The notes under the pieces were generated by a model. It saw only the letters and a list, made by a program, of their open reading frames with translations, did not search any database and had not been told where the DNA came from. The translations under genes and the position numbers were made by a program. A stretch of DNA of 33,245 bases from Rhizobium subbaraonis (GTDB taxonomy: Bacteria > Pseudomonadota > Alphaproteobacteria > Rhizobiales > Rhizobiaceae), in assembly GCF_900220975.1 (NCBI RefSeq), contig NZ_OBQD01000034.1, positions 1 to 33,245 of the forward strand, given 5' to 3'. Shown here one piece after another: positions 1,018 to 27,629 of the stretch. Position 1 is the first letter of the stretch, and each line of letters begins with the position of its first letter.

Positions 1018-1923
1018 TTATAACTTAACCAACGTGCCCTGGCGCCCTTCAAGGATCGCACGGGCCTCTTCAAGTCGGCCTATGCCCGCAAGTCCGCCGG
1101 TGTTTGCAAAGTCGCACGCCGCCTCCACTTTCGGCCGCATGGATCCGGCAGGAAAAGCACGGCTATCTAATTCCGCTGGCGCTATTTTCCTGATTGGCCG
1201 CGAGTCCGGTGTGCCCCAGCCTTGGTAGACGGCATCCACGTCGGTGAGCATCAGGAAGGCGTCAGCGTCGAGCGCCTTGGCAAGCAACCCGGCTGCCCTG
1301 TCCTTGTCGATAACTGCCTCAAGGCCATGAAGCGTGCCGTTTGCATCCCGGGCTACCGGGATGCCACCGCCTCCCGCGCAGATGACCGTCACGCCGGCCT
1401 CCACTAGGAGCCGGATCGTCTCGATCTGGGTGATGCGCGCGGGGAGCGGAGAGGGGACGACCCGGCGCCATCGGTCGTCCGCTTCCTCCACCATCGGCCA
1501 GCCATGGGCCTCATTCGCCTTCGCTGCCTCGTTTCGTGTATAGACCGGCCCAATCGGCTTTTCCGGCCGCGCGAAGGCGGGATCGTCTCGTTCCACCTCG
1601 ATCTGGGTCAGCAACGTTGCGATTTTGGATCCTACCGCCATCGCATTGGTCAGTTCCTGTTCGACGAGATAACCGATCATGCCGACGCTCTCCGCCCCGA
1701 GGATATCGAGCGGATAGGGATCGACATCCGTGTAAGCGGCCGCCTGGAGCGCCAAAAGCCCGACCTGTGGTCCGTTTCCGTGCGCAACGACGATCTCGTG
1801 GTCGCGCGCCAGGTCGGCCAGCGCGATGGCCGCCTTACGCACATTCATGCGCTGCACGTCGGCCGTCATCGGCTCGCCGCGCTTGAGCAGCGCGTTGCCT
1901 CCCAGTGCCACCACCACCCGCAT
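1018..1923 (-). CDS. arcC: Carbamate kinase
   Basis: Carbamate kinase converts carbamoyl phosphate and ADP to ATP, CO2 and ammonia, the ATP-yielding last step of the arginine deiminase pathway. The 301-residue length is normal for the family. Visible motifs are GGNALL near residue 8, AHGNGPQVG near 47-55, a glycine-rich GGGGIPV near 180 and a nearby KD pair (VIDKDRAA) of the amino-acid kinase fold. The C-terminus has the usual GSMRPKVEAA segment. The start codon lies one base after the arcB stop, which fits translational coupling. It is the third enzyme of the cluster, after arcA and arcB. Confidence 0.95.
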   Translation of the reverse strand: MRVVVALGGNALLKRGEPMTADVQRMNVRKAAIALADLARDHEIVVAHGNGPQVGLLALQAAAYTDVDPYPLDILGAESVGMIGYLVEQELTNAMAVGSKIATLLTQIEVERDDPAFARPEKPIGPVYTRNEAAKANEAHGWPMVEEADDRWRRVVPSPLPARITQIETIRLLVEAGVTVICAGGGGIPVARDANGTLHGLEAVIDKDRAAGLLAKALDADAFLMLTDVDAVYQGWGTPDSRPIRKIAPAELDSRAFPAGSMRPKVEAACDFANTGGLAGIGRLEEARAILEGRQGTLVKL

Positions 1924-1924
1924 G

Positions 1925-2926
1925 TCACGATCCCAGCGTTGCGACCAGCAGAGCCTTGATCGTGTGCATGCGGTTTTCGGCCTGATCGAAGACGATGGAG
2001 GCTTCGGATTCGAAGACCTCTTCCGTCACTTCCATGCTGTCGACGCCGTATTGCTGGAAGATTTTCTCGCCGACCTCGGTCTCGCGGTTGTGGAACGCGG
2101 GCAGGCAGTGCATGAATTTTGCGTGCGGATTGCCTGTTGCAGTCATGATATCAGCGGTGACGCGATAAGGTGTGAGGAGTTCGATGCGCTCTTTCCAGAC
2201 CGAATCCGGCTCCCCCATCGACACCCAGACATCGGTGTAGACGAAATCGCAGCCGTTGACGGCCTCGTAAGGATCTTCGGTCAGGGTGATCTTCGCACCG
2301 GTCCTGGCTGCGATCTCCTGGCACTGTCGGACCAGATCGGCCTCGGGCCAGCAGGCCTTCGGCGCGCCGAGGCGCACATCCATGCCAATCTGCGCGGCGC
2401 CGGCAAGGAGCGAGTTACCCATGTTGTTTCCGGCGTCACCGAGGAAGGCGAAGGTGACCTGCGACAGGTGCTTGCGTGTGTATTCCCGCATGGTCAGGAA
2501 ATCGGCCAGGATCTGGGTCGGATGGAATTCGTCGGTCAGCCCGTTGTAGACCGGAACGCCAGCGAATGCTGCCAGTGTCTCGGCCTGCTCCTGCCCGAAG
2601 CCGCGATACTCGATGCCGTCATACATTCTTCCGAGCACGCGCGCGGTATCCTTCATCGATTCCTTCTTGCCGATCTGGGTGCCGGTCGGGCCAAGGTAGG
2701 TGACGTGCGCGCCCTGGTCGTAAGCGGCGACCTCGAAGCCAGTGCGGGTACGTGTCGAATCCTTCTCGAAGATCAGCGCGATGTTCTTGCCTTTCAGGCG
2801 CGGCTCCTCGTAGCCGCCATATTTTGCCTGTTTGAGCGATGCTGACAGCTTGAGCAGAAAGCGGATTTCGTCGGGCGTGAAATCCAGTAGCTTCAGGACG
2901 CTGCGACCTTTCAGGTTCACGGGCAT
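1925..2926 (-). CDS. arcB: Ornithine carbamoyltransferase, probably catabolic
   Basis: The enzyme phosphorolyses citrulline to ornithine and carbamoyl phosphate in the catabolic direction. The STRTRTGFE carbamoyl-phosphate loop is near residue 55, FHPTQ near 135 and HCLPAF near 270, all standard for OTCases. The ATG at 2926 is preferred over one at 2974: it has AAGGAG just upstream, gives the usual [17 protein letters not shown]-terminus and a normal length (333 residues), and avoids overlap with arcA. The gap to arcA is 11 bases and to arcC one base. The catabolic role is inferred from its place between arcA and arcC. Confidence 0.95.
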
Positions 2927-2937
2927 GACAGGCTCCT

Positions 2938-4164
2938 TTAAACGGGATCTCGAACAAGCGGGCAGGTCATGCAATGACCGCCACCACGACCGCGTCCGAG
3001 CTCGGCGCCGGGCACGGTGATGACCTCTACGCCTGCCTTGCGCAGTTGGGTGTTGGTGTAGGTGTTACGGTCGTAAGCGACGACGACGCCAGGCTCGAGC
3101 GCCACAACGTTGTTACCGTCATCCCACTGCTCGCGCTCGGCGACATACGCGTCTCCGCCCGTCTCAACGACACGCAACTGTTTCAAACCCAGCACTTCGG
3201 CAGCGACGTCCACGAGCGGGTGCTCCTCCTTGCGGACATCGATTGCGCCTTCCCTCTCACCTGGGCGAATGGAATAAGGTTCGATCTTGTGGGCCACATC
3301 GGCGAAAAGTGTCACGAGATCGCGATCGCAGAAGCTGAAGACAGTATCGAGATGCATCGAGGCTCGCTCGATCGGTAGCTTGCAGGCGATCACTCTTTGC
3401 GCTCCGCCCTTCGCGAACAGGGACCGTGCGAGTTGACCGACAGCCTGTGGCGTCGTCCGCTCTCCCATACCGACGAGAACTGTCTCGTTGCCGATCGGCA
3501 TGACATCGCCGCCCTCCAGCGTGGCGAGGCCGTGGTCCTTGTCAGGATCTCCCCACCAGACCGGAAAACCGGCATCGGCGAAATCGGGATGGAATCTGTA
3601 GATGGCAGCGATGTTGACGGTTTCGAGCTTTCGTGCATTCCATCGCATCGGATTGAGCGTGACGCCGCCATAAATCCAGCAGGTGGTGTCGCGTGTGAAC
3701 AGGTGGTTAGGCAGTGGCGGCAGAGTAAAGTCTTCTGGACGCAACGTTTCCGAGAGCAAGCCGCCACTCTTGATCGGTAGCTCTGCCTTGCTCAGGCCAC
3801 CCATCAGGATCAAGGAAAGCGCATCAGCTTCGATCTCCATAAGATGCGCCCTTAGGTCGTCTGCGAAACCAACTCCAACGGTATCGTCGGTAACGCGACG
3901 TTCGAGAAGCCATTGGCGCGCCTCGGGGATTTGTAGTGTCTCAGCAAGCATCTCCCGCAGAAATACTACCTCAACGCCGCGATGGCGCATGGCGTCCACA
4001 AAGGTCAGGTGCTCAACGCGAGCCTGCTTGACCCAGATGACGTCGTCAAAGAGCAGTTCATGGCAGTTGGAAGGGGTCAGGCGAGCGAGCGCAGCGCCGG
4101 GGCGATGGACGAGAACACGACGAAGCTTTCCGACTTCCGAGTGAACGCCATAGGTGGGAGCCAT
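2938..4164 (-). CDS. arcA: Arginine deiminase
   Basis: Arginine deiminase hydrolyses arginine to citrulline and ammonia, the first step of the ADI pathway. The 408-residue protein starts with the typical [18 protein letters not shown]. It contains [12 protein letters not shown] near residue 155, EGGDVMPIG near 217, and MHLDTVF with the catalytic His near 270. The C-terminal [18 protein letters not shown] carries the catalytic Cys near residue 400. AAAGGAGA lies just before the ATG. It follows the transporter gene by 12 bases and precedes arcB by 11, forming one operon. Confidence 0.97.
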
Positions 4165-4176
4165 TGAAAATCTCCT

Positions 4177-5607
4177 TTAGGCAATGACGGTGGCGACGCT
4201 CAGGCTCGCCATGATAATGATGGTGAGGATCACGAGGAGCGGCCACATGAAGCGCAGCCACCGTTCGTAGGGTACGCGACCGATCGCCAGCGCTCCCATG
4301 ACGACGGCGAAGGTCGGATTGACGAGATTCACGATGCCGTTGGCCGACTGGTAGGCGGTAACGACGTGGTCGCGGCCGACGCCGGCGAAATCGGCGACCG
4401 GTGCCATTATCGGCATAGTCAGAACCGCGAGCCCCGATGATGAAGGCACGAAAAATGACATCAGCACCTGAAGCCAGTACATCACGTTGATAAAGGCGAC
4501 CTTGCCGAGGCCTGCAACCGAACCTTCGGCCCAATGCAGTATGGTGTCGGTAATCTTGCCCGCATCCATGATGACAACGATGCCGCGCGCCAGACCGATG
4601 ATCAGGGCAACACCTAGAAGATCGCGGGCACCATTGACGAAGGCATCCGTAAAATTCTTCTCGCCGGTCCGGGCTATGAAGCCGACCACAATAGCGGATG
4701 CTAGGAACAGGCCACTCATTTCGCCCATCCACCAGCCGCCCTTCAGCACGCCCCAGACCATTACGGCAAACGTGAGAGCAAAGACCGCCAGCACGAGCTT
4801 GTGGGTCGTGGTAAATTCGGCTCCATCATGGTGCGCGCTGAGGAAATGCTTCTCGTTGTCTGCCTTCATGTCGTAGACAAGTGACCTGGTGGGGTCGAGC
4901 CTCACCCTCTCGGCATAGCGCATCACGTACGCGACGCAGGCGAGCCATGTCAGGCCAAGGATGACGAGCCGCAACACGAGCCCTTGCGTGAACGGCACGC
5001 CCGCGGCATCCGAAGCGATAACAGTGGCGAACGCATTGACGGTGGAACCGAGAACTCCAACGCCCGCGCCAAGCAGGATGATGGCAACAGCGGTTACCGC
5101 GTCATAGCGCGCCGCGATCATGATCGGGATGAGAAGCATATAGAAGGCCAGCGTTTCCTCGGCCATGCCGTAGGTCGTGCCGCCGAAGGCGAACAATGCC
5201 ATGAGGAATGGGATCATCCATTTCTCATGGCCGTTCAGGCTACTCATGGCCCGCTCGATGCCTGCATTGATCGCGCCTGTGGCGGTCACGACACCGATAA
5301 ACCCGCCGATCACCAGGACGAAGAGAGCGACGTCGATCGCGTTTGCGGTGCCGGCTGCGGGATCGTAGAAACCGCGTATCGGCGCCATGATGATGTCGAA
5401 TATCCCCTGCGGCGCCGGCTCAGCGACCGCATAGGTCCCCGCGACCGGCACTTGCTTGTTCAAGGCAACATTCTGAACACGGTCGTACTGCCCGGCCGGT
5501 ATGATCCATGTGAATGCGGCGACCAGAACGATCAAGCCAAAGAGGATGGTGAATGCGGTTGGGAACTGAAAACGACGTTCCTCCGGTGCTTCAGAAACAG
5601 TGCTCAT
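4177..5607 (-). CDS. YfcC-family transporter, likely arginine/ornithine exchanger of the ADI operon
   Basis: This 476-residue inner-membrane protein has about a dozen hydrophobic segments and belongs to the YfcC/DcuC-like group of the ion transporter superfamily. Features are a first membrane span after a soluble N-terminus (FPTAFTILFGLIVLVAAFTWIIPAGQYDR), GGTTYGMAEETLAFY near 165, and a late SFFVPSSSGLAVLTMPIMAP segment near 400 followed by NGIVNLVNPT. The ATG at 5607 follows a GGGAGGGGGT ribosome site; an ATG at 5664 would run through the operator and promoter. Being first in the arc operon, it probably exchanges arginine and ornithine, the ArcD job, though it is not the classical APC-type ArcD. 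The substrate is inferred from context. Confidence 0.85.
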   Translation of the reverse strand: MSTVSEAPEERRFQFPTAFTILFGLIVLVAAFTWIIPAGQYDRVQNVALNKQVPVAGTYAVAEPAPQGIFDIIMAPIRGFYDPAAGTANAIDVALFVLVIGGFIGVVTATGAINAGIERAMSSLNGHEKWMIPFLMALFAFGGTTYGMAEETLAFYMLLIPIMIAARYDAVTAVAIILLGAGVGVLGSTVNAFATVIASDAAGVPFTQGLVLRLVILGLTWLACVAYVMRYAERVRLDPTRSLVYDMKADNEKHFLSAHHDGAEFTTTHKLVLAVFALTFAVMVWGVLKGGWWMGEMSGLFLASAIVVGFIARTGEKNFTDAFVNGARDLLGVALIIGLARGIVVIMDAGKITDTILHWAEGSVAGLGKVAFINVMYWLQVLMSFFVPSSSGLAVLTMPIMAPVADFAGVGRDHVVTAYQSANGIVNLVNPTFAVVMGALAIGRVPYERWLRFMWPLLVILTIIIMASLSVATVIA

Positions 5608-5626
5608 ACCCCCTCCCAGGAAATAG

Positions 5627-5647
5627 TAAACGACACCGTATCGTTTA
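5627..5647. promoter_or_regulatory. TetR-type operator palindrome over the arc promoter
   Basis: This 21-bp site has perfect 7-bp outer arms, TAAACGA (5627-5633) and TCGTTTA (5641-5647). Counting inward, 9 of 10 symmetric pairs match around a central base, with one mismatch at 5634/5640. Size and symmetry are typical of TetR/AcrR operators. It lies 19 bases upstream of the transporter start codon, overlaps the proposed -10 element, and is about 150 bases from the divergent TetR gene. I infer that this TetR protein represses the arc operon here. Confidence 0.65.
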
Positions 5648-5664
5648 ATAAGCAAACTCGTCAA
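5637..5664 (-). promoter_or_regulatory. Candidate promoter of the arc operon
   Basis: On the minus strand TTGACG (5659-5664) is followed after 16 bases by GATACG (5637-5642), a good -35 and a weak -10. The -10 sits inside the 21-bp palindrome, so protein bound there would block transcription. No clear FNR/FixK-type TTGA-N6-TCAA box was found in the 5608-5793 region. Confidence 0.45.
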
Positions 5665-18517: not shown

Positions 18518-18546
18518 AAAGCTGATGTTTGGTCACGAGGGGTGGA

Positions 18547-19395
18547 ATGAAGACGCCAAAAGATATTGTCGTTTATATCGATACAGCCGATGTTTCTGTT
18601 TGTCGGGTCTATATTGATTATGCTGTTTCACTTGCACGCGCATGGGATGCGCATGTCGTTGTGGCTTTCGTGCCGGAAGATTTGATCGCCACTCCGTCCC
18701 ATGGCTTCGCCCGAGGGGCGGCGATCAACAGCATGATAACCTCCTTTGAGACGCGCCGGCATGACGCCGAGGCGCAGCTGCGGGGGCTCCTTTCGGACGT
18801 CGCGTCGGCCACCGGCGTGAATTGCGAGCTTCGGATATGTTCCGGTGAAACGGGCGAGGCGCTGATGCTGCACGCCCGCCACGCCGCCTTGGCAATCGTC
18901 GGAACGGGGCGTGACCCGGACCGCGCTGAGACGGCTCTCACCGTCTCGGAGGATATCATCTTTGCCTCCGGTCGCCCTTCGATCCTTTTGCCCACATCCT
19001 GGCAAAGCGACAGCGCCGTGCCTGAAACGGTCGTGGTCGGATGGAATGCCAGCCGGGAAGCGGCCCGCGCCATTGCGGATTCGATGGCGTTCCTGGCCAC
19101 CGCTCGCGCCGTCCACGTCGTCGTTGTTCCCGAGCCCAAGGTTGCGCGGCTTCTGGGGGAGGACCCCGGAAGCGATATCTCTCTCCATCTCGCGCGCCAC
19201 GGGATCAGGGTGACGCTTGACCGGTTGGAAGGCGGCAATGCCGGCGATCTGATCCTGTCCCGCGCGGAGGAGCTTGGCGCCGACCTTGTGGTCATGGGCG
19301 CCTACGGGCAGTCCCGGATCACAGAGTTCGTTTTCGGCAGCGCAACCCGTACCATTCTGGCCAATCCGAAAATCCCGATCTTTCTTTCGCGATAA
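18547..19395 (+). CDS. Tandem universal stress protein
   Basis: This is a 282-residue protein with two USP domains. Domain 1 (about 1-140) begins KDIVVYIDTAD and has ALAIVGTGRDPD near 118. Domain 2 (about 155-282) begins ETVVVGWNASREAARAI and ends with DLVVMGAYGQSRITEFVFGSATRTIL, an intact GX2GX9G(S/T) nucleotide motif. Domain 1 lacks a clear version of that motif. The ATG at 18547 has GAGGGGTGG just upstream; an upstream GTG at 18529 is less likely. It probably responds to energy or oxygen stress, given neighbouring HdeD and DUF1269 proteins. Confidence 0.9.
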   Translation: MKTPKDIVVYIDTADVSVCRVYIDYAVSLARAWDAHVVVAFVPEDLIATPSHGFARGAAINSMITSFETRRHDAEAQLRGLLSDVASATGVNCELRICSGETGEALMLHARHAALAIVGTGRDPDRAETALTVSEDIIFASGRPSILLPTSWQSDSAVPETVVVGWNASREAARAIADSMAFLATARAVHVVVVPEPKVARLLGEDPGSDISLHLARHGIRVTLDRLEGGNAGDLILSRAEELGADLVVMGAYGQSRITEFVFGSATRTILANPKIPIFLSR

Positions 19396-19470: not shown

Positions 19471-20001
19471 ATGTCTGATCTGGTGGTCGTCGGTTTCGAT
19501 ACGGTTGATGAAGCCGACAGGGTACTTCTCAAGCTCGCTGCCCTCAGAAAGGAATATCTGGTCGATCTGGAGGACGCCGTCGTCGTCGTTCGTGACGGCG
19601 ACGGCAAGGTCCATCTCAAGCAGAGCCTTAACCTGGCGGCTCTCGGCGCCACATCGGGCCTTCTCTCGGGAACGATCTGGGGCGGCCTTGTGGGCCTGCT
19701 GTTCCTCAATCCGCTTGCCGGCATCGCCATCGGCGGCCTGACGGGAGCCGGTGTCGGCGCCTTGTCCGGCTCCCTTGCCGACTATGGCATCGACGACACG
19801 TTCATCAAGTCTCTGGGCGAGACCATTCCAAGCAATTCATCTGCGCTGTTCGTCCTTGTCCGAAAGGTCCAGCCGGAAAAGGTGCTGGCGGAGTTCGAAG
19901 GCCTGCGTGGTCGAGTTCTCAAGACGTCCCTGTCGCCGGAGCAGGAAGAGAAGCTGAGGATCGCCTTGTCCGAAAATGTAACCGGGTCAGGCGCCGCCTA
20001 G
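19471..20001 (+). CDS. DUF1269 membrane protein
   Basis: A 176-residue protein with the DUF1269 pattern. An N-terminal ferredoxin-like half (LVVVGFDTVDEADRVLLKLA, DLEDAVVVVRDGDGKVHLKQS) is followed by a Gly-rich hydrophobic stretch near residues 58-100 (GLLSGTIWGGLVGLLFL, GALSGSLADYGIDD). The C-terminal half has SSALFVLVRKVQPEKVLAE. Function in the family is not established. A good AGGAGAAG lies before the ATG. It starts 75 bases after the tandem USP and ends 55 bases before nqrA. Confidence 0.9.
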   Translation: MSDLVVVGFDTVDEADRVLLKLAALRKEYLVDLEDAVVVVRDGDGKVHLKQSLNLAALGATSGLLSGTIWGGLVGLLFLNPLAGIAIGGLTGAGVGALSGSLADYGIDDTFIKSLGETIPSNSSALFVLVRKVQPEKVLAEFEGLRGRVLKTSLSPEQEEKLRIALSENVTGSGAA

Positions 20002-20056: not shown

Positions 20057-21312
20057 ATGGGGGTATTTTTGCGGGTACATATCAGGGGCGGGATCGATCT
20101 TCGATGGGAAGGCAAGCCGGCAGGCACGATTGACGATGCGGTCATGGCTCGCTCGGTTGCGCTTATGGGAGAAGATTACCCGCGCCTGCGCCCGATTATC
20201 GATGTCGCGATCGGACAAGCCGTGCGAGCCGGCGAGCGGCTGTTTACGGATCGTCACCGCCCTCATCTGACGTTTACAGCCCCTGTTGCTGGAACAATCC
20301 GCGCAATCTCGCGCGGCGCGCGTAGAAGCCTCGATTCCATTATTATCGACGTCGAGGACGAAGCCGCCGTCGAATTCGACAGGCCCTCACGGCCAGATCG
20401 CATGACCATGCAGTCGCTCCTGCTCCAAAGCGGTTGCTGGCAGTCATTTCGCACCCGGCCATTCGGTCGGCTCGCCGATCCCCGGCAGGCTCCTGATGCG
20501 ATTTTCGTAACAGCCACCGATACCGCGCCGCTCGCAGGTGATCCGGCCCCCGTCATAAGGCGCTTCGAATCATGGTTTCGTCTCGGCGCGGAGGCGCTGC
20601 GTCACCTGACCGACGGTCCCGTTTACGTCTGTCACGGGGCCGATGCCTCCCCGGCCGTTCCCGAAGCCGTCAAGGCTGTCTGTTTCGCGGGCAGGCATCC
20701 GGCGGGTCTGGTTGGAACCCATATCCATCATCTCAATCCTGTCGGTGTAAACAGGATGGTTTGGCACATCGGCTATCAGGACGTAATCGCGCTGGGATGC
20801 CTGCTCGATACGGGCCGGATATGGACACGGCGCGTCGTTGCGCTGACCGGACCGGGGACGTGCAGTCCGCGCCTCGTTGTCGCTCCCGCAGGCGCGAATC
20901 TGAAAGATCTTTTCGGCGCCTCGCTCACCGGTCCCTCGGTTCAGTTGCTTTCGGGCTCTCCGCTCGGCGGAACGGTCGAGCATTTCCTGCGGCGTTATGA
21001 CGTGCAGGCCACCGCCATCCCACACAGGCATCCGCTCCGGCGCTCCTTTCTCATGCGCTACCTGACCTCATTCAACGAGCAGTTTCCGGCGCCGCTCATT
21101 CCCAATGCCGTTCATGAACGGGCCGCGCCTTGCGGGATCCCGCGCCGTTCCTGCGCGCCATCAGCACGGGCGATGTGGAAACCGCCGCGAAACTTGGTGC
21201 GCTGGAACTTGTGGAAGAGGATCTGGCGCTCCTGAGCCATGTCGACGGGTCGGGCACGGATTATGGCGCCCTGTTGCGTGCGACGCTCGATGAGTTGGAG
21301 GAAGCGATATGA
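20057..21312 (+). pseudogene. nqrA: Na+-NQR subunit A with a one-base frameshift near the 3' end
   Basis: NqrA is the peripheral quinone-site subunit of the Na+-pumping NADH:quinone reductase. The first frame runs from 20057 to 21235 and is NqrA-like to about residue 360: GGIDLRWEGKPAG, FTAPVAGTIRAI, GLVGTHIHHLNPV, VALTGPG and GGTVEHFL. It then becomes Arg-rich nonsense. From about 21133 the next frame holds the missing NqrA C-terminus (FLRAISTGDVETAAKLGALE). Adding one base near 21131-21142 restores a 418-residue protein, close to the usual 440-450. Its stop overlaps the nqrB start. Either NqrA is truncated or the base was lost in sequencing; all other nqr genes are open, which favours error or a recent event. 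Confidence 0.85.
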
Positions 21313-22115
21313 TCGCCTTCTTCCATGACCTGCAGGCGGGCCGCGTCGGCCGCACCTTGTTGTCCGACAGCGCCACGCCCGCGCTGCTCGGCGTGATCGT
21401 CCCGGTCGTGTCCGCGCTTGTCGCAGATACGGAACAGTTCGCAGCGCGGCTGCTGATCTCTGTCAGCCTGACCCTTGCGTGGCAGCATGTCTTCACACGT
21501 GTCCGGGGTCTCAGGCCGGGACTTGACGGTATTGTCGCCGCCACGCTGATCGCCCTTCTTGTCCCGGCCGATGCGCCGCTCTGGCAGCTCGCTTTGGGCG
21601 TCAGCTTCGGCGTGGTGATCGCCGAACAGGTGTTCGGTGGGCGCGGGCGCAATTTCGTGCATCCTGCCGTCGCCGCCCTTGCCTTCGTGATGTTCTCCTT
21701 CACTGAAATCGACTATCGAGCCGGGCCAAACATTCCTCTGGCGGCATTGCTTCCGGCTTTGGTTCTCCTGCTCCTCAGCGGCCAGGCGTCATGGCGATTG
21801 CTGCTTGCGGCCTACTGCACGATGGCCCTCATGGTTTGGGCGCAGGGAAGCGATCCGTCGGTCAACCTGCTTTCGGGTGCGATCGGCTGCGCGATCCTCT
21901 TTCTGGCGGCAGATCCTGTATGTTCCTGCACGACAAATCCAGGTCGTTTTGCACAGGGCATTCTGACCGGCGTGCTCATCGGCCTGTTCTCGCAGGCCGG
22001 ATCGACTTTTGGAGCCGCGATCTTCGCGATCCTGATGAGCAGCATTTTCGCACCATTGATCGATTACGTGGTCGTGGCGATCCATGTAAGGCGGAGGGCA
22101 AGGCGACATGGCTGA
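21309..22115 (+). CDS. nqrB: Na+-NQR subunit B, short form without the FMN-attachment motif
   Basis: NqrB is the membrane subunit that in characterised enzymes carries covalent FMN and riboflavin. At 268 residues this one is far below the usual 400 or so. It aligns from memory with Vibrio NqrB through LWQLALGVSFGVVIAEQVFGG, GRNFVHPAVAALAF, the ADPVCSCTTNPGRF loop (DPVS loop) and IFAPLIDYVVV. The N-terminal 100 or so residues are different or missing. The segment that should hold the SGAT flavinylation motif between VMFSFTE and the next membrane span is absent. Its start overlaps the nqrA stop and its end overlaps nqrC by eight bases. The reading frame is open throughout, so this looks like a real variant. 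Confidence 0.88.
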   Translation: MIAFFHDLQAGRVGRTLLSDSATPALLGVIVPVVSALVADTEQFAARLLISVSLTLAWQHVFTRVRGLRPGLDGIVAATLIALLVPADAPLWQLALGVSFGVVIAEQVFGGRGRNFVHPAVAALAFVMFSFTEIDYRAGPNIPLAALLPALVLLLLSGQASWRLLLAAYCTMALMVWAQGSDPSVNLLSGAIGCAILFLAADPVCSCTTNPGRFAQGILTGVLIGLFSQAGSTFGAAIFAILMSSIFAPLIDYVVVAIHVRRRARRHG

Positions 22116-22926
22116 CGCTCGTCCTCCCAGCCCGCGCCCGGGCATGTGGCGCCGCTTTCTGAACCGTCCGAACACCGATGGCGTCAAGACGATCGGCATG
22201 TCGCTTCTGGTGGCCATTGGCTGCGGCTTTACCGTCTCCATCGCAGCGGTCGTCCTGCGGCCGATCCAGCAGGCCAATATCGTCGCCCAGCAACAGGGCC
22301 GCATGGTGCAGATGCTGGAAAACGTTCCGGGCATCGGGGAGATATTGAAGGAATCTGGCGCAAGCGGCGTCGAAACGCTCGTCATCGACCTCGCAAGCGG
22401 AACGGTCGCCGCCGATGTCGATCCGGGAAGCTTCGATCAGCGAGCGGCGGCGGCGGACGCAGAGCGAAGTTCGGCCCTGCCGCGCGCTGACGACCTCGCT
22501 GGTCTCAGCCGCCGCGAAAACCACGCGCTTGTCTATCTTCTGCGCCGCGGCGAGGAACTGGCGCTCGTTGTGCTTCCGGTCCGCGGCGCCGGCTACCAGT
22601 CGACCATCCGGGCCTATCTGGCGCTGGAGGCCGATCTCGACACCGTTGCCGCCTTCACGGTTTATGAGCAGGGTGAGACGCCCGGCCTCGGCGCCCGCGT
22701 CGCCGAGGACGGTTGGCAGGCGCAATGGGCAGGCAAGCGCATCTTCGACGATGGCGATTTCGCCATTTCCGTGGTGCGCGGCAATGCCAGCGGCCCCAAT
22801 GAAGTCGACGGCATCTCCGGCGCCAGCGTCACGAGCTATGCGATCTCGGACATGCTCGAATTCTGGATGGGCGAGCACGGCTTCGGGCCGTTTCTCGACA
22901 GGCTGAAGAAAGGCGAGATCGAATGA
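22108..22926 (+). CDS. nqrC: Na+-NQR subunit C (covalent-flavin subunit)
   Basis: The 272-residue subunit has a cytoplasmic N-terminus, one membrane span (about residues 32-50, MSLLVAIGCGFTVSIAAVVL) and a periplasmic FMN-binding domain. The flavin motif near the C-terminus reads DGISGASVTS, with Ser where most NqrC proteins have the FMN-carrying Thr (SGAT). It is followed by the conserved LEFWMGEHGFGPFLDRL. GETPGLGARVAEDGWQAQW near 190 is also typical. GCGGAGGG precedes the ATG. The nearby apbE product would attach FMN here. Confidence 0.95.
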   Translation: MADARPPSPRPGMWRRFLNRPNTDGVKTIGMSLLVAIGCGFTVSIAAVVLRPIQQANIVAQQQGRMVQMLENVPGIGEILKESGASGVETLVIDLASGTVAADVDPGSFDQRAAAADAERSSALPRADDLAGLSRRENHALVYLLRRGEELALVVLPVRGAGYQSTIRAYLALEADLDTVAAFTVYEQGETPGLGARVAEDGWQAQWAGKRIFDDGDFAISVVRGNASGPNEVDGISGASVTSYAISDMLEFWMGEHGFGPFLDRLKKGEIE

Positions 22927-23582
22927 CTATCCCTTTCCGCAACCTGACAGATCCGCTCATCGACAAGAACCCCGTCACCGTCCATATCCTCGGCATCTGC
23001 TCGGCACTGGCGGTCACGACATCGATGTCCACCGCTCTCACCATGTCGATCGCCCTGACCGTCGTGCTCGGCCTGTCGGCAGGCGTCATCAGCGCCATCC
23101 GCCGACACATCCCGTCCTCCGTGCGCATCATCCTGCAGATCACCATCATCGCCTCGCTGGTCATCGTCGCCGACCAGATGTTGCAGGCTTTTGCCTATGA
23201 GATGAGCCAGCGGCTGACGGTGTTTGTCTCGTTGATTGCCACGAACTGCATCGTGCTCGGGCGCACCGAAGCCTATGCGCTGCACAATCCGGTCGTTCCC
23301 AGCATCGTGGATGGCGTCGGCAATGCACTCGGCTACAGCCTGGTGCTGCTCACTGTCGCCGCCATCCGCGAGTTGTTCGGCGCCGGAAGCCTGTTCGGCG
23401 TCGGCCTGCTGCCACTCGTGGCCGACGGTGGCTGGTACCAGCCACTCCGTCTTATGCTGCTCGCGCCGAGCGCATTCATCATCCTTGGCCTTCTGGTCTG
23501 GGCTGTTCGCAGCCTGCGCCGGGGCCAGAGGGAAGCGCCTGAATTCGAGTTGCGCGAGCAGCAAAGGACGACTGAGACATGA
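22923..23582 (+). CDS. nqrD: Na+-NQR subunit D
   Basis: A 219-residue membrane subunit with six spans. [15 protein letters not shown] near residue 20 and [16 protein letters not shown] near 105 carry the two conserved Cys residues that, with two in NqrE, hold the intramembrane iron site in known enzymes. [13 protein letters not shown] and [12 protein letters not shown] follow as in the family. The C-terminal tail (from about residue 195) is hydrophilic and slightly longer than usual. ATGA overlaps on both sides show tight coupling to nqrC and nqrE. Confidence 0.96.
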
Positions 23583-24181
23583 TCGAACTGTTCCAGCGCT
23601 CCATTTTCGAAGAAAACCTCGCGCTGTCCTTCTTCCTCGGCATGTGCACCTTCCTCGCCGTCTCCAAGCGCGTGGAAACAGCCTTCGGCGTGGGTGTTGC
23701 GATGATCGTCGTGCAATCGCTCAGCGTGCCGGTGAACTACCTGCTGCACGCCTATATCCTGAGTGCCGGGGCGCTCGCGTGGATGGGGCTGCCGGATGTC
23801 GATCTCGGTTTCATGCGGCTGATCACCTTCATCGGCATCGTCGCGGCGATGGTGCAGATCATCGAGATGCTGCTCGATCGTTACGTGCCCGCCCTCTACG
23901 GCGCGCTTGGCATCTACCTGCCGCTGCTCGCCATCAACTGCGCCATTATCGGCGGCAGTCTGTTCATGGTCGAGCGGCAATATGATCTCACTGAAAGCAC
24001 GGTCTATGGGATCGGCACCGGGATCGGCTGGGCGCTGGCCATCGTCGCGCTCGCGGCGATCCGCGAGAGGCTGCGCTATGCCAATGTCCCCGAAGGATTG
24101 CAGGGCCTCGGCATTGCTTTCATCGTCACCGGTCTCCTGTCCATGGCGTTCTCCGCCTTTGTGGGAGTGCGCGTGCTATGA
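23579..24181 (+). CDS. nqrE: Na+-NQR subunit E
   Basis: A 200-residue, six-span membrane subunit that pairs with Nqr[21 protein letters not shown] near residue 20 and [15 protein letters not shown] near 118 contain the expected two Cys ligands of the intramembrane iron site. The C-terminus [22 protein letters not shown] is standard. It overlaps nqrD and nqrF by four bases each. Confidence 0.96.
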
Positions 24182-25398
24182 CGGAGATCCTGCTCGGCAT
24201 CGGCTTCATTTCCTTGCTGCTCGTCGCGCTGGCAGCCGTTGTCCATAAGGTTCGGGAGTATCTGCTGCCGTCGCGACCCGTGGCGGTCACCGTTAACGGC
24301 GGGCGTGAGATTGGCGCTCTGGCGAATTTCAAGCTTCTCGATATTTTGAATTCCAACGGCATCGCCGTGCCCTCGGGCTGCGCCGGCGCGGGAACGTGCG
24401 GCCTGTGCCGCGTCAGCGGCGTCACGGGTACGGGAGAGCCGTTGCCGACGGAACGCGCCCGGCTTTCTCCTGCCGACGTTCGGGCTGGAATGCGGCTCGC
24501 CTGCCAGATCGTGGTGCGAAACGACCTCGCCGTCACCGTCCCGGACGAGGTGCTCGGCATCACCACGATGAACTGCCGCGTGGCATCGTCGCGCAGTGTC
24601 ACGCCTTTGATCAAGGAAATCGTGCTCGCCTTGCCGGAGGGCGCGGAATTCGACTTTCGTGCGGGCAATTTCGTGCAGGTCACCGCACCGGCCTATCGTC
24701 TCGACTTCTCCGGCATCGCGCTTGAACCGCAGCATGCCGCCGAATGGAAAAAACTCGGAATTGACAAGCTCTCGTCGCAAAGCCCTCAGCCCGTCTCTCG
24801 CGCCTATTCGGTTGCCAGCCGACCCAAGGATGTCGGCATGATCGTGCTCAACATCCGTCTGGCCACGCCACCGCCAGCCAAACCGCATGCACCTCCCGGC
24901 ATCGTCTCGTCATGGCTGTTCGGTCTGCGCGAGGGCGACCCGATCGAAGTGGCGGGCCCGTATGGTCACTTCGGGGCGCAGGATACCGGGCGCGAGATGG
25001 TGTTTATCGGCGGCGGCGTCGGCATGGCGCCCTTGCGCGCCATCATAACGGACATGCTCGAGCGTCAGGGAAGCCGCCGCAAGATCAGCTTCTGGTACGG
25101 CGCGCGAAGCCGTGGCGAACTGTTCTACGCCGACGAATTCGACGAGCTTGCCCGGCGTCATGAGAACTTCCGCTGGGTGCCAGCCCTCTCCGAACCAGCC
25201 AGAAACGACCCCTGGGACGGTGAGTTAGGCTTTGTCCATGATGTCGTCTTCCGCGCCTATCTGAAGGATCACCCGGCGCCGGAGGACTGCGAATATTATC
25301 TGTGCGGCCCTCCGCTCATGATCGAGGCCATCTACGCGATGCTCGATGAATGCGGTGTGGAGAGCGAGAGCATCTTCAATGACGATTTCGGGATCTAG
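24178..25398 (+). CDS. nqrF: Na+-NQR subunit F (NADH dehydrogenase subunit)
   Basis: NqrF takes electrons from NADH. The 406 residues give an N-terminal membrane anchor (residues 2-25), then a [2Fe-2S] domain with [13 protein letters not shown] and later RLACQ supplying four Cys ligands (residues about 66-110). The FAD domain has RAYSVASRP near 205 and [16 protein letters not shown] near 240. The NADH domain has [15 protein letters not shown] near 278, [12 protein letters not shown] near 305 and [14 protein letters not shown] near 370. It ends DDFGI, matching the usual DDFG tail. Full length, with all key residues present. Confidence 0.97.
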
Positions 25399-25402
25399 GA
25401 GC

Positions 25403-26377
25403 ATGACGACAAGGCGCGAGATCGTATTTGGACTGGGAGCCCTGGCCGGACTGATGTCCTTGCCGTCTTTGGCCCGAGCCGGTGCCGATGATCTCACGCG
25501 CATCTCCGGGCGCGCTTTCGGCACACGATGGCAGGTCACCGTTCCGGCCGATGCCGATGCCCGCAAGATTGGCGCGGATCTCCGGCACTTACTGGCCGGG
25601 ATCGATCATTCGATGAGCCCGTTTCGTGCGGGTTCGGAGCTTTCGCGCTTCAACAGCCGTTCGGAAATCACACCGTTCGCAGCCTCCGAGCCGCTTCGGA
25701 CGGTTGCTAGCAAGGCACTCGAGATTGCGCGATTGACCGGCGGCGCGTTCGATCCGGCCGTCGGGCCCGCTGTCCATCGTTACGGTTTCGGGCCGATCGC
25801 TGCCGGGCGGTCCGGTCGCTACACCGCTTTTGCCGTCAGTGCCGAAGGCCTCTCCAAAGCAGAGCCGGAACTTTCGCTCGATCTGTGCGGCATAGCCAAG
25901 GGCTACGCCGTCGACCGGCTTGCAGGACACCTGAGAGATCAAGGGCTGCCGAGTTTCCTGATCGAGGTGGGTGGCGAAGTCTATGGTTTCGGTGCGCGCC
26001 CTGACGGCCGTCCATGGCGCGTCGGCATTGCGGACCCGCTTCGCACCGGTGTCCACACGACGCTTCCCCTGACAGGCGTGGCGATGGCGACCTCGGGCGA
26101 TGCGATCAATGCCTATGAGATCGCGGGCCGCCGCTACAGTCATACGATCGATCCCGCAACCGGAGAGCCGGTTCGCAACAGCGTCGCCTCGGTTTCCGTT
26201 CTGGCCCCGACAGCGCTGGAGGCCGACGCGTTTGCGACCGCCCTTCTGGTAATGGGTCCTGAAGGCGGCCTTGCATTCGCCTCCGCCAACCGTCTGCCCG
26301 CGCTTTATCTGCTTCGCGAGGCGGGAGGTCTTAAGGCCAGAGCCAACAGGTTGTTCATCGACCAGGGGAGGGCATAA
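25403..26377 (+). CDS. apbE: FAD:protein FMN transferase (ApbE)
   Basis: ApbE attaches FMN from FAD to Thr/Ser of target subunits such as NqrC and NqrB. From ATG 25403 (TAGGAGC before it, four bases after nqrF) the protein is 324 residues. It begins with a twin-arginine-like signal (TTRREIVFGLGALAGLMSL), fitting a periplasmic enzyme. Family motifs are GRAFGTRWQV near 38, DHSMSPFRAGSELSRFN near 70, TGGAFDPAVGP near 110, DLCGIAKGYAVD near 157, EVGGEVYGFG near 182 and the HTIDPATGEPV metal/FAD site near 250. Placement after nqrF makes the Nqr subunits its targets. Confidence 0.95.
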   Translation: MTTRREIVFGLGALAGLMSLPSLARAGADDLTRISGRAFGTRWQVTVPADADARKIGADLRHLLAGIDHSMSPFRAGSELSRFNSRSEITPFAASEPLRTVASKALEIARLTGGAFDPAVGPAVHRYGFGPIAAGRSGRYTAFAVSAEGLSKAEPELSLDLCGIAKGYAVDRLAGHLRDQGLPSFLIEVGGEVYGFGARPDGRPWRVGIADPLRTGVHTTLPLTGVAMATSGDAINAYEIAGRRYSHTIDPATGEPVRNSVASVSVLAPTALEADAFATALLVMGPEGGLAFASANRLPALYLLREAGGLKARANRLFIDQGRA

Positions 26378-26381
26378 AGCC

Positions 26382-26543
26382 ATGCAGACCATTTTCGCCG
26401 CTGTTCTTCTGACCGGGCTTGCCATGCTCGCGCTGGCCGCCGGCCTTTTTGCCGGCCGCGCACCGCTCAAGGGATCGTGCGGCGGCGCGGCCTGCGGCGG
26501 CAAATGCCATGCTTGCGAACGATCCGAAGGAAGCGGGACATGA
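26382..26543 (+). CDS. nqrM: NqrM-like Na+-NQR maturation protein
   Basis: A 53-residue protein with one N-terminal membrane span (residues 3-24) followed by KGSCGGAACGGKCHACE. This matches NqrM, which has a span then KGSCGG and further Cys residues and is needed to load iron into the NqrD/E site. Four Cys are present here. It starts four bases after apbE, and its stop overlaps the CBS gene start. An upstream in-frame start at 26271 would lie inside apbE and is rejected. Confidence 0.85.
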   Translation: MQTIFAAVLLTGLAMLALAAGLFAGRAPLKGSCGGAACGGKCHACERSEGSGT

Positions 26544-26935
26544 AACTCGACACGGTCGCCGATCATATGCGCACGGACCTGATCACGCTGACGCCGGACA
26601 TGGAGATAGTACGGGCCGTGTCCGTGCTCATGCAAAACGGCGTGTCGGGTGCATGCGTCATCGACGGCGCCGGCGATCTCGTCGGCGTTCTGTCCAAACG
26701 CGATTGCCTGAAGGCCGCACTCAACGCCTCCTACTACAAACAATGGGGTGGCAGTGTCGCCGACTATATGAGCACCGAACTCGAGACGCTCGATGCGGGT
26801 ATCGACATCGTCGAAGCGTGTGAGCGCTTTGTCGCAAGCTCGTACCGGCGGTTCCCCGTCACCCGCCATGGCCGACTTGTCGGCCAGATCAGCCGTACCG
26901 ACGTCCTCAACGCCCTTTCACGGCAGTGGACATAA
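26540..26935 (+). CDS. CBS-pair domain protein
   Basis: A 131-residue protein made of two CBS domains: residues about 8-62 (MRTDLITLTPDMEIVRAVSVLMQNGVSGACVID, LVGVLSKRDCL) and about 75-130 (YMSTELETLDAGIDIVEACERF, RRFPVTRHGRLVGQISRTDVL). CBS pairs bind adenine nucleotides and often report energy state. The ATG at 26540 overlaps the nqrM stop; an earlier ATG at 26477 lies inside nqrM. Coupling to the nqr operon suggests an energy- or nucleotide-sensing role linked to Na+-NQR. That role is inferred. Confidence 0.92.
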   Translation: MKLDTVADHMRTDLITLTPDMEIVRAVSVLMQNGVSGACVIDGAGDLVGVLSKRDCLKAALNASYYKQWGGSVADYMSTELETLDAGIDIVEACERFVASSYRRFPVTRHGRLVGQISRTDVLNALSRQWT

Positions 26936-26966: not shown

Positions 26967-27629
26967 ATGACACGACAGCTCTCCAGAAGATTGTTTCTCG
27001 CAGGAACCAGTGCGGCAGCGTCCGCAGGTATCGTCGGGACAGCCAATGCGCAGGTGGCCTCCGGCGGCGCTGCAACCGTCTCCGTGCAGGAAGCCCTGAA
27101 ACAGCGCCGCTCTACCAAGCGCTTCGGGCGTGGTGACGTTGCGCGCGAAAAGGTGCTCGAAGCACTGTGGGCGGCCAATGGTGTCAACCGCGCGGACGGT
27201 GATGGACGCACAGCGCCCGCCTGGCACGGTGCGAAGAACGTCGATATCTACGTCGCGCTGGAAGATGGCGTCAGTCTCTACGACCCCGTGGCAAACGCTC
27301 TCAACAAAGTGGCCGATACCGATATTCGCGCCGATGTCAGCCCTACGGCTTTCGTACGCCGGGCGCCCGTGGTGCTGATCTATGTTTCCGATGCCGAGAA
27401 ACTTGCAACCGCCGCCGGCGAGTTGGCCACATCCGCACCCGAGGAACTGGTCATCGCCGCACGCGTCAACTCGGCCGTCATGGCCCAGAACGTCTATCTG
27501 TTCTGCGCTGCCGAAGGGCTCGGCACATGCCTCCTCGGTACCGTGGACAGGGAAGCCATCAAAACAGCGCTGAAGTTCCCGGACCATCTTTCGGTGACTT
27601 ATATCCAGCCCTTGGGCGAGATCGGCTGA
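26967..27629 (+). CDS. Tat-exported nitroreductase-fold (SagB/ThcOx-like) protein
   Basis: A 220-residue protein with a twin-arginine signal (SRRLFLAGTSAAASAGIVG, cleavage likely after ANA near 28), so folded and probably flavin-loaded before export. The mature part has QEALKQRRSTKRF near 45, ALWAANGVNRADG near 70, and a C-terminal LFCAAEGLGTCLLGTVDRE, the usual FMN-dependent nitroreductase pattern. It starts 31 bases after the CBS gene, so it could be the last gene of the nqr operon. A periplasmic flavin protein next to apbE and nqr may take part in electron transfer. The substrate is unknown. Confidence 0.85.
   Translation: MTRQLSRRLFLAGTSAAASAGIVGTANAQVASGGAATVSVQEALKQRRSTKRFGRGDVAREKVLEALWAANGVNRADGDGRTAPAWHGAKNVDIYVALEDGVSLYDPVANALNKVADTDIRADVSPTAFVRRAPVVLIYVSDAEKLATAAGELATSAPEELVIAARVNSAVMAQNVYLFCAAEGLGTCLLGTVDREAIKTALKFPDHLSVTYIQPLGEIG

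Follow-up and report, generated by a model that had tools for sequence, protein, structure and literature searches.

We describe in Rhizobium subbaraonis an nqrABCDEF operon whose NqrB subunit is short and has lost the covalent flavin site together with the quinone-site segment of Na+-NQR. We read the encoded complex, with moderate confidence, as an NQR-derived NADH:periplasmic-acceptor oxidoreductase in which electrons would leave at FMN-NqrC. This reading is well indicated for relatives with cytochrome genes beside the operon and weaker for the nitroreductase type found in the window, the 33,245-nucleotide stretch analysed here. The preliminary description of this DNA had proposed that this NQR variant is short of one covalent flavin. 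The missing flavin is well supported at the level of sequence, but that interpretation fell short because the quinone-site segment and most pocket residues are lost too.

Organization of the nqr locus

Downstream of nqrABCDEF (20057-25398) come apbE, an nqrM-like ORF and the genes for a CBS-domain protein and a Tat-type nitroreductase. The features of the locus are:

18529..19395, + strand: UspA-type stress protein, upstream (PF00582)
19471..20001, + strand: DUF1269 protein, directly upstream of nqrA (PF06897)
20057..21312, + strand: nqrA, with NqrA domains PF05896, PF24836 and PF11973; frame broken near 21.1 kb
21309..22115, + strand: short nqrB, 268 aa; PF03116 match, four deletions by alignment
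22108..22926, + strand: nqrC; above the TIGR01938 cut-off, predicted FMN site Ser240
22923..23582, + strand: nqrD, half of the membrane [2Fe-2S] site; above the NF006777 cut-off
23579..24181, + strand: nqrE, other half of the membrane [2Fe-2S] site; above the TIGR01940 cut-off
24178..25398, + strand: nqrF, NADH-oxidising FAD/[2Fe-2S] subunit; above the TIGR01941 cut-off, 451.6 bits
25346..26377, + strand: apbE, FAD:protein FMN transferase; PF02424, E=1e-70 for 25403-26374
26382..26543, + strand: nqrM-like small membrane/cysteine protein, named from position and look only
26537..26935, + strand: two-CBS-domain protein (PF00571)
26967..27629, + strand: nitroreductase-family flavoprotein with a twin-arginine signal; PF00881, E=3.9e-19, Tat-like motif

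For NqrC, NqrD, NqrE and NqrF the score exceeds the cut-off of one or more NCBIfam NQR models; no such cut-off is reached by NqrB or by NqrA with its broken frame. The nqrM-like ORF had no match in the family searches, and the gene in its place in Nitratireductor OM-1 is annotated nqrM. The CBS-domain gene is present in 72 of the 75 short-NQR loci with at least 5.6 kb of downstream sequence. The genome (6.58 Mb, 85 contigs) contains a gene of the complex I NADHdh family, and no other Rnf-Nqr locus was found in it, the search for Rnf-Nqr membrane subunits detecting only nqrD and nqrE. The short NQR is therefore probably not the main NADH dehydrogenase of this organism.

The overlap of nqrB with both neighbours, reported previously, measures 4 bp with an nqrA-type frame ending at 21312 and 8 bp with nqrC (from 22108), but the upstream frame is discontinuous with the nqrA start. 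The break lies near the 3′ end of nqrA at about 21.1 kb (region 21083-21312) and leaves two NqrA-matching ORFs of 392 and 60 aa. The six-gene operon of Na+-NQR is present in the window with a broken nqrA frame, which is intact in relatives, among them Shinella sp. PSBB067 (434 aa). The nqrA of one further relative (L029) is likewise split into two ORFs.

Loss of the covalent-flavin loop and quinone-site segment in NqrB

The window NqrB (21309-22115, +) matches NQR2_RnfD_RnfE (PF03116, E=2.7e-37) and scores 113.7 bits against the nqrB model TIGR01937, far under the curated cut-off of 349.9. Its 268 residues contain neither SGAT nor SGAS, as first noted in the preliminary description. Alignment with two long NqrBs revealed four deletions. 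One removes the N-terminal segment, two remove the TM1-TM2 and FMN loops, and the fourth takes out a small loop further on. The stretches that span the membrane can be aligned with those of both long proteins. Since the segments predicted from hydropathy overlapped and could not be counted as spans, the apparent retention of the membrane core rests on this alignment.

Residues were tallied in 88 short and 37 long NqrBs, numbered as in V. cholerae (Vc). One sequence cut by a contig end (L086) was left out, and three RnfD-like rows (L009, L010, L017) were set apart from the long class. Near-duplicates with identical NqrB (the window, L019 and L026-L028) were kept in the residue, neighbour, ligand and multihaem counts, as were L018 and L048, which look like one locus. 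The column of Thr236, the SGAT residue that carries covalent FMN in Na+-NQR, is empty in 88 of 88 short NqrBs and is Thr in 37 of 37 long ones; the three RnfD-like rows have Ser there. Y216 and A263 are 8 residues apart in 87 short rows and 9 in the remaining one, compared with 41-67 in the long class. Much of the N-terminus is missing as well, as had been stated: 27-71 residues precede F142 in short rows and 80-141 in long rows, with starts set by script in both classes and the lowest long values coming from rows trimmed by that script. Re-use of the FMN site elsewhere in NqrB was considered and rejected. A literal SGAT occurs in 6 of 89 short proteins (L020, L033, L035, L036, L038, L068), in five of them directly after the D346 position, and in none is it aligned with Thr236.

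The quinone site has fared similarly. In the cited parts of the structural literature, an N-terminal segment with amphipathic helices forms the quinone pocket of V. cholerae NqrB (PMC10643135; PMC12174285), and we took the contact positions from those parts of the cryo-EM work (PMC10643135) and the review (PMC12174285). This site of Na+-NQR was not found in short NqrB. Among the 88 proteins, F159 and F160 are each Phe in 1, G140 is Gly in 3, G141 is Gly in 18 and E157 is Glu in at most 3 (85 of the 88 residues tallied). As the segment and most of the pocket residues are gone and periplasmic redox proteins are co-encoded, the change likely concerns the end point of electron flow, beyond one missing cofactor.

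Conservation of the riboflavin contacts is mixed. All 88 short NqrBs retain both D346 and G198; T162 is Thr in 60 and Ser in 12, N200 is retained in 48 and N203 in 40. The window protein has A, N, H and D at T162, N200, N203 and D346 in the alignment. Because D346 and G198 are invariant, short NqrB may still bind riboflavin and relay electrons, which counts against an exit to the periplasm. In a rival reading quinone would still be reduced, by way of FMN-NqrC, riboflavin in NqrB and a remodelled quinone site. The invariant contacts and the Thr or Ser at position 162 would suit this route, as would the direct hop from FMN-C to a non-covalent flavin that the cited passages propose for a two-subunit Nqr/Rnf-like complex (PMC10979944). 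We nevertheless regard it as unlikely, given the absence of the segment with the pocket helices, the change of most pocket residues described there (PMC10643135; PMC12174285) and the patchy retention of N200 and N203. It would also leave the cytochromes encoded beside these operons unexplained.

The NADH-to-NqrC half of the chain

FMN-NqrC shuttles in NQR between NqrD/E and NqrB. Its flavinylation motif is found in 86 of 86 NqrCs of the short class (TGAT 41, SGAT 27, SGAS 15, AGAT 2, TGAS 1), so that the covalent FMN of Na+-NQR is predicted here too, with Ser in place of Thr in 16 of the 86. SGAS is the motif in all 13 nitroreductase-type loci, the window included; attachment in the window is predicted at Ser240 in DGISGASVTS (codon about 22825-22827). 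The NqrD and NqrE cysteines for the membrane [2Fe-2S] of Na+-NQR are present, two being invariant in NqrD (85/85) and the NqrE pair occurring in 84/84 and 83/84. NqrF has its six Cys in 83 of 83 rows, with the FAD/NAD domains and [2Fe-2S] cysteines of Na+-NQR. Judged from the sequences, the ligands are retained for a predicted path from NADH through FAD, [2Fe-2S]F and [2Fe-2S]DE to FMN-NqrC. Moreover, 47 positions of NqrD and 35 of NqrE are kept at 97% or above in both classes (85 and 84 short rows, 21 long rows). NqrC differs between the two classes at three positions, 163, 197 and 236 in window numbering. The change at 236 adjoins the FMN motif and would fit an altered docking partner.

A clade of short NqrBs

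The preliminary description had held frameshift damage to nqrB unlikely and had predicted a clade of short NqrBs with the same deletions. Both expectations were borne out. The nqrB gene is letter-identical over 807 nt in Shinella sp. PSBB067, its coding sequence is unchanged in L019, L026, L027 and L028, and it is identical in four other assemblies overall. Besides PSBB067, genomes with an identical copy are those of Rhizobium rosettiformans, Brucella pseudogrignonensis and a Hyphomicrobiales MAG. These unchanged copies rule out an assembly deletion or frameshift in nqrB. In a tree, 81 short NqrB rows form one group with one label change (SH-aLRT 99); it was built by a quick method, and the tool warned of long branches meeting. 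L004, L018, L019, L026, L027, L028, L086 and L091 had been left out beforehand.

The relatives were the best 80 of 192 from a scan of genome contigs. Nearly all of these 80 are Alphaproteobacteria, the others including Alloalcanivorax and MAGs of Rubrivivax and Burkholderiaceae. In an even sample of 385 alphaproteobacterial genomes the short profile matched 19, and the matches spanning the FMN gap in one piece were those in G000, G312 and G176; since so few cross the gap, the short form is rare. PSBB067 is 95.2% identical to the window over 15.5 kb, and the R. rosettiformans, B. pseudogrignonensis and Hyphomicrobiales genomes match about 11.3-27.84 kb at 95-96%. With an identical nqrB inside such an island, the locus seems to travel between genomes. 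The island alignment ends near 27.84 kb, beyond which lie transposase-like and integrase-like ORFs (named by reading).

A decaying operon, its complex out of use, would also explain a shortened nqrB. The broken nqrA of the window genome, the split gene of L029 and a Tn3-family element after nqrC in the Paracoccus aminophilus operon could be taken as signs of decay. However, nqrB has dN/dS values (NG86) of 0.16-0.22 against L029, L030 and L031 and 0.41 against L033, the same deletions run through the clade, the redox ligands are invariant and PSBB067 combines an intact nqrA with the identical nqrB. Decay is thus argued against for the clade, where we hold it very improbable; for the window strain alone it is possible.

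Periplasmic redox genes adjoin the operon

We favour instead a reading in which FMN-NqrC hands electrons to a redox protein of the periplasm whose gene adjoins the operon. In most sampled loci the putative acceptor would be a divergently encoded pentahaem cytochrome c; one locus would use a tetrahaem domain fused to its NqrC, and a few would combine a Tat-exported flavoprotein and a multihaem cytochrome. In the subclade of the window it would be, to judge by its neighbourhood, a Tat-exported nitroreductase. Upstream sequence of 1.7 kb or more before nqrA was available for 81 loci. Of these, 53 have a pentahaem cytochrome c, 13 a Tat nitroreductase and 8 another periplasmic redox gene. No partner gene was seen nearby in 7 (L020, L046, L056, L059, L071, L072, L091); of these, L091 is a short contig and L020 (Paracoccus aminophilus pAMI8) is interrupted by the Tn3-family transposon, which splits the operon after nqrC; nqrDEF are unannotated in the stretch covered.

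All 53 pentahaem genes are divergent from nqrA and encode five CxxCH. The gene is found in 55 of 87 loci overall, the L060 copy being downstream on the same strand, and also in G312 and G057. The L022 protein passes the Pfam cut-offs of the cytochrome c7, c3 class III and c3_2 models; a pentahaem profile gave weak matches only among solved structures. As a control, a multihaem ORF (at least 3 CxxCH) was found no further than 6.5 kb from nqrB at 28 of 43 short loci and at none of 15 long ones (Fisher p=6.5e-6, the rows being phylogenetically non-independent); 44 of 87 short loci had no centre or radius and were left out, as were 6 of the 21 long regions, of which 3 could not be placed by motif and 3 fell short of the full radius.

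The 8 loci with another periplasmic redox gene include L042 and L034, described below. In L057, L070, L076 and L102, the genes for FAD_binding_2 flavoproteins, whose Tat-like signals were recognized by reading, have 4- or 6-haem ORFs near them; L039 has an EB_dh family redox gene near the operon and L075 a 4-haem ORF 6 kb downstream. In L042, a single MAG, nqrC is one frame encoding FMN_bind (218-311) and Cytochrom_c3_2 (369-450; E=4.7e-18). This NqrC-tetrahaem cytochrome c3 fusion (L042:10561-11931, Bauldia MAG) has nqrDEF, apbE and the CBS gene on the opposite strand. L170 (G176:C102) is one case of still further reduction of the short NQR, consisting of nqrBCDEF-apbE-CBS preceded by a gene for a tetrahaem cytochrome c; its NqrC keeps SGATRT. 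A search of its 19.9 kb stretch found no nqrA, and its NqrB has Ser at the D346 position, which argues further against quinone reduction through riboflavin in NqrB.

The same neighbours could serve a complex running in reverse, periplasmic cytochromes feeding electrons in and an ion gradient driving NAD+ reduction. NQR/RNF chemistry is reversible in principle, and L034 carries a PccH-type cytochrome gene immediately upstream of nqrA; the PccH family is involved in cathodic electron uptake. We give this little credence, since flavoprotein neighbours and Fnr/FixK-type boxes point to electron disposal at low oxygen. Of 54 loci, 28 have the box TTGAYN4RTCAA in the promoter region between the diverging genes, where 50 shuffles gave an expected 0.16 on average and 2 at most. 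Furthermore, none of 9 neighbour clusters (at least 6 loci each) read as a periplasmic dehydrogenase, by reading only.

The nitroreductase type

None of the 13 nitroreductase-type loci has the pentahaem cytochrome, and the Tat-like motif [STN]RRxF[LI] is present in all 13 nitroreductases. A search of the window genome with the pentahaem cytochrome profile, run without a positive control, gave no match, so that the acceptor is assigned from gene neighbourhood only; the nitroreductase is accordingly a candidate periplasmic acceptor in this subclade. No Fnr box with up to one mismatch was found in the window. Genes of the arginine deiminase pathway (arcC, arcB, arcA and a transporter) were recognized by reading at 1018-5664 and suggest fermentative metabolism; upstream of the operon lie an acetate kinase gene (by reading) and genes for a PTA_PTB protein and UspA. 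Together these genes are in keeping with oxygen-poor life, though the missing Fnr box is not.

Relation to known complexes

The short NQR shares with Na+-NQR of the Vibrio type the six-gene operon, the redox ligands of NqrF, NqrD, NqrE and NqrC, ApbE and, by alignment, the membrane core of NqrB. It differs in the short NqrB, without FMN loop and quinone-site segment, and in the adjoining periplasmic redox genes. As two of the tested NQR features, FMN-B and the quinone site, are missing, it is placed as a variant within the NQR/RNF superfamily, not as Na+-NQR in the strict sense. That it forms a distinct branch of the superfamily, an NADH:periplasmic cytochrome (or flavoprotein) oxidoreductase bypassing the quinone pool with an NqrB free of covalent flavin, seems to us an even chance. 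A literature search, with subscription journals mostly outside its scope, found no description of a short-NqrB variant in the material covered.

The short NQR would work like an archaeal model. Rnf of Methanosarcina acetivorans also has a multihaem cytochrome c gene adjacent, and the cited passages propose FMN-RnfG as donor to MmcA and RnfA/E as Na+ movers (PMC4023990; PMC6703419). Unlike the short NQR, which is NADH-driven via NqrF and has NqrA, the archaeal complex is ferredoxin-driven with RnfB and RnfC, and its RnfD has a potential flavin motif, SGTF, according to the cited part of that work (PMC4023990). Deletion of mmcA, as reported in the part cited, did not substantially impair growth on acetate (PMC6703419), so this parallel is a model, not proof. 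Two-subunit Nqr/Rnf-like complexes, proposed in the cited passages to pass electrons unidirectionally from NAD(P)H to an extracytosolic acceptor (PMC8238504; PMC10979944), likewise have, as described there, an NqrB-like subunit without the flavinylation Thr. They consist of an NqrC-like subunit and an NqrB-like subunit with a fused NAD-binding domain, in contrast to the six separate genes of the short NQR, including nqrD and nqrE; no such fusion lacking NqrD/E was found in the window. RnfD also lacks the two N-terminal helices, in the account of the review section cited (PMC12174285), but has a covalent FMN and donates electrons to RnfC. No RnfB or RnfC iron-sulphur subunit is encoded at the window locus, where the genes are nqrA and nqrF. 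NqrA as an RnfC-like electron carrier was ruled out, because NqrA has no cofactor as described in that section (PMC12174285).

The route of Na+ is disputed in the sections cited, between NqrB/RnfD (Hau 2023; Vitt 2022) and NqrD-E/RnfA-E (Kumar 2025) (PMC12174285; PMC11889175). The short NQR, with an intact NqrD/E-NqrC half and an NqrB devoid of covalent flavin and quinone site, would be a natural test. D397, like D346, is retained in 88 of 88 short NqrBs, and such a complex could serve to separate the electron-transfer and ion-movement roles of NqrB. NqrD/E may translocate ions, NqrB being kept as a scaffold or ion path. If the proposed reading holds and the complex pumps ions, FMN-B and quinone reduction would be dispensable, the NqrD/E route would be favoured and NqrB would have a role other than electron transfer. 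It would also represent a bacterial NADH-driven entry to periplasmic respiration without quinone. Finally, Na+/Ca2+-exchanger-like and cation:proton-antiporter-like ORFs, recognized by reading, recur near short-NQR operons in 9 loci each (for example L026:16392-17360 and L073:15496-16698); a link with the pumped ion is possible.
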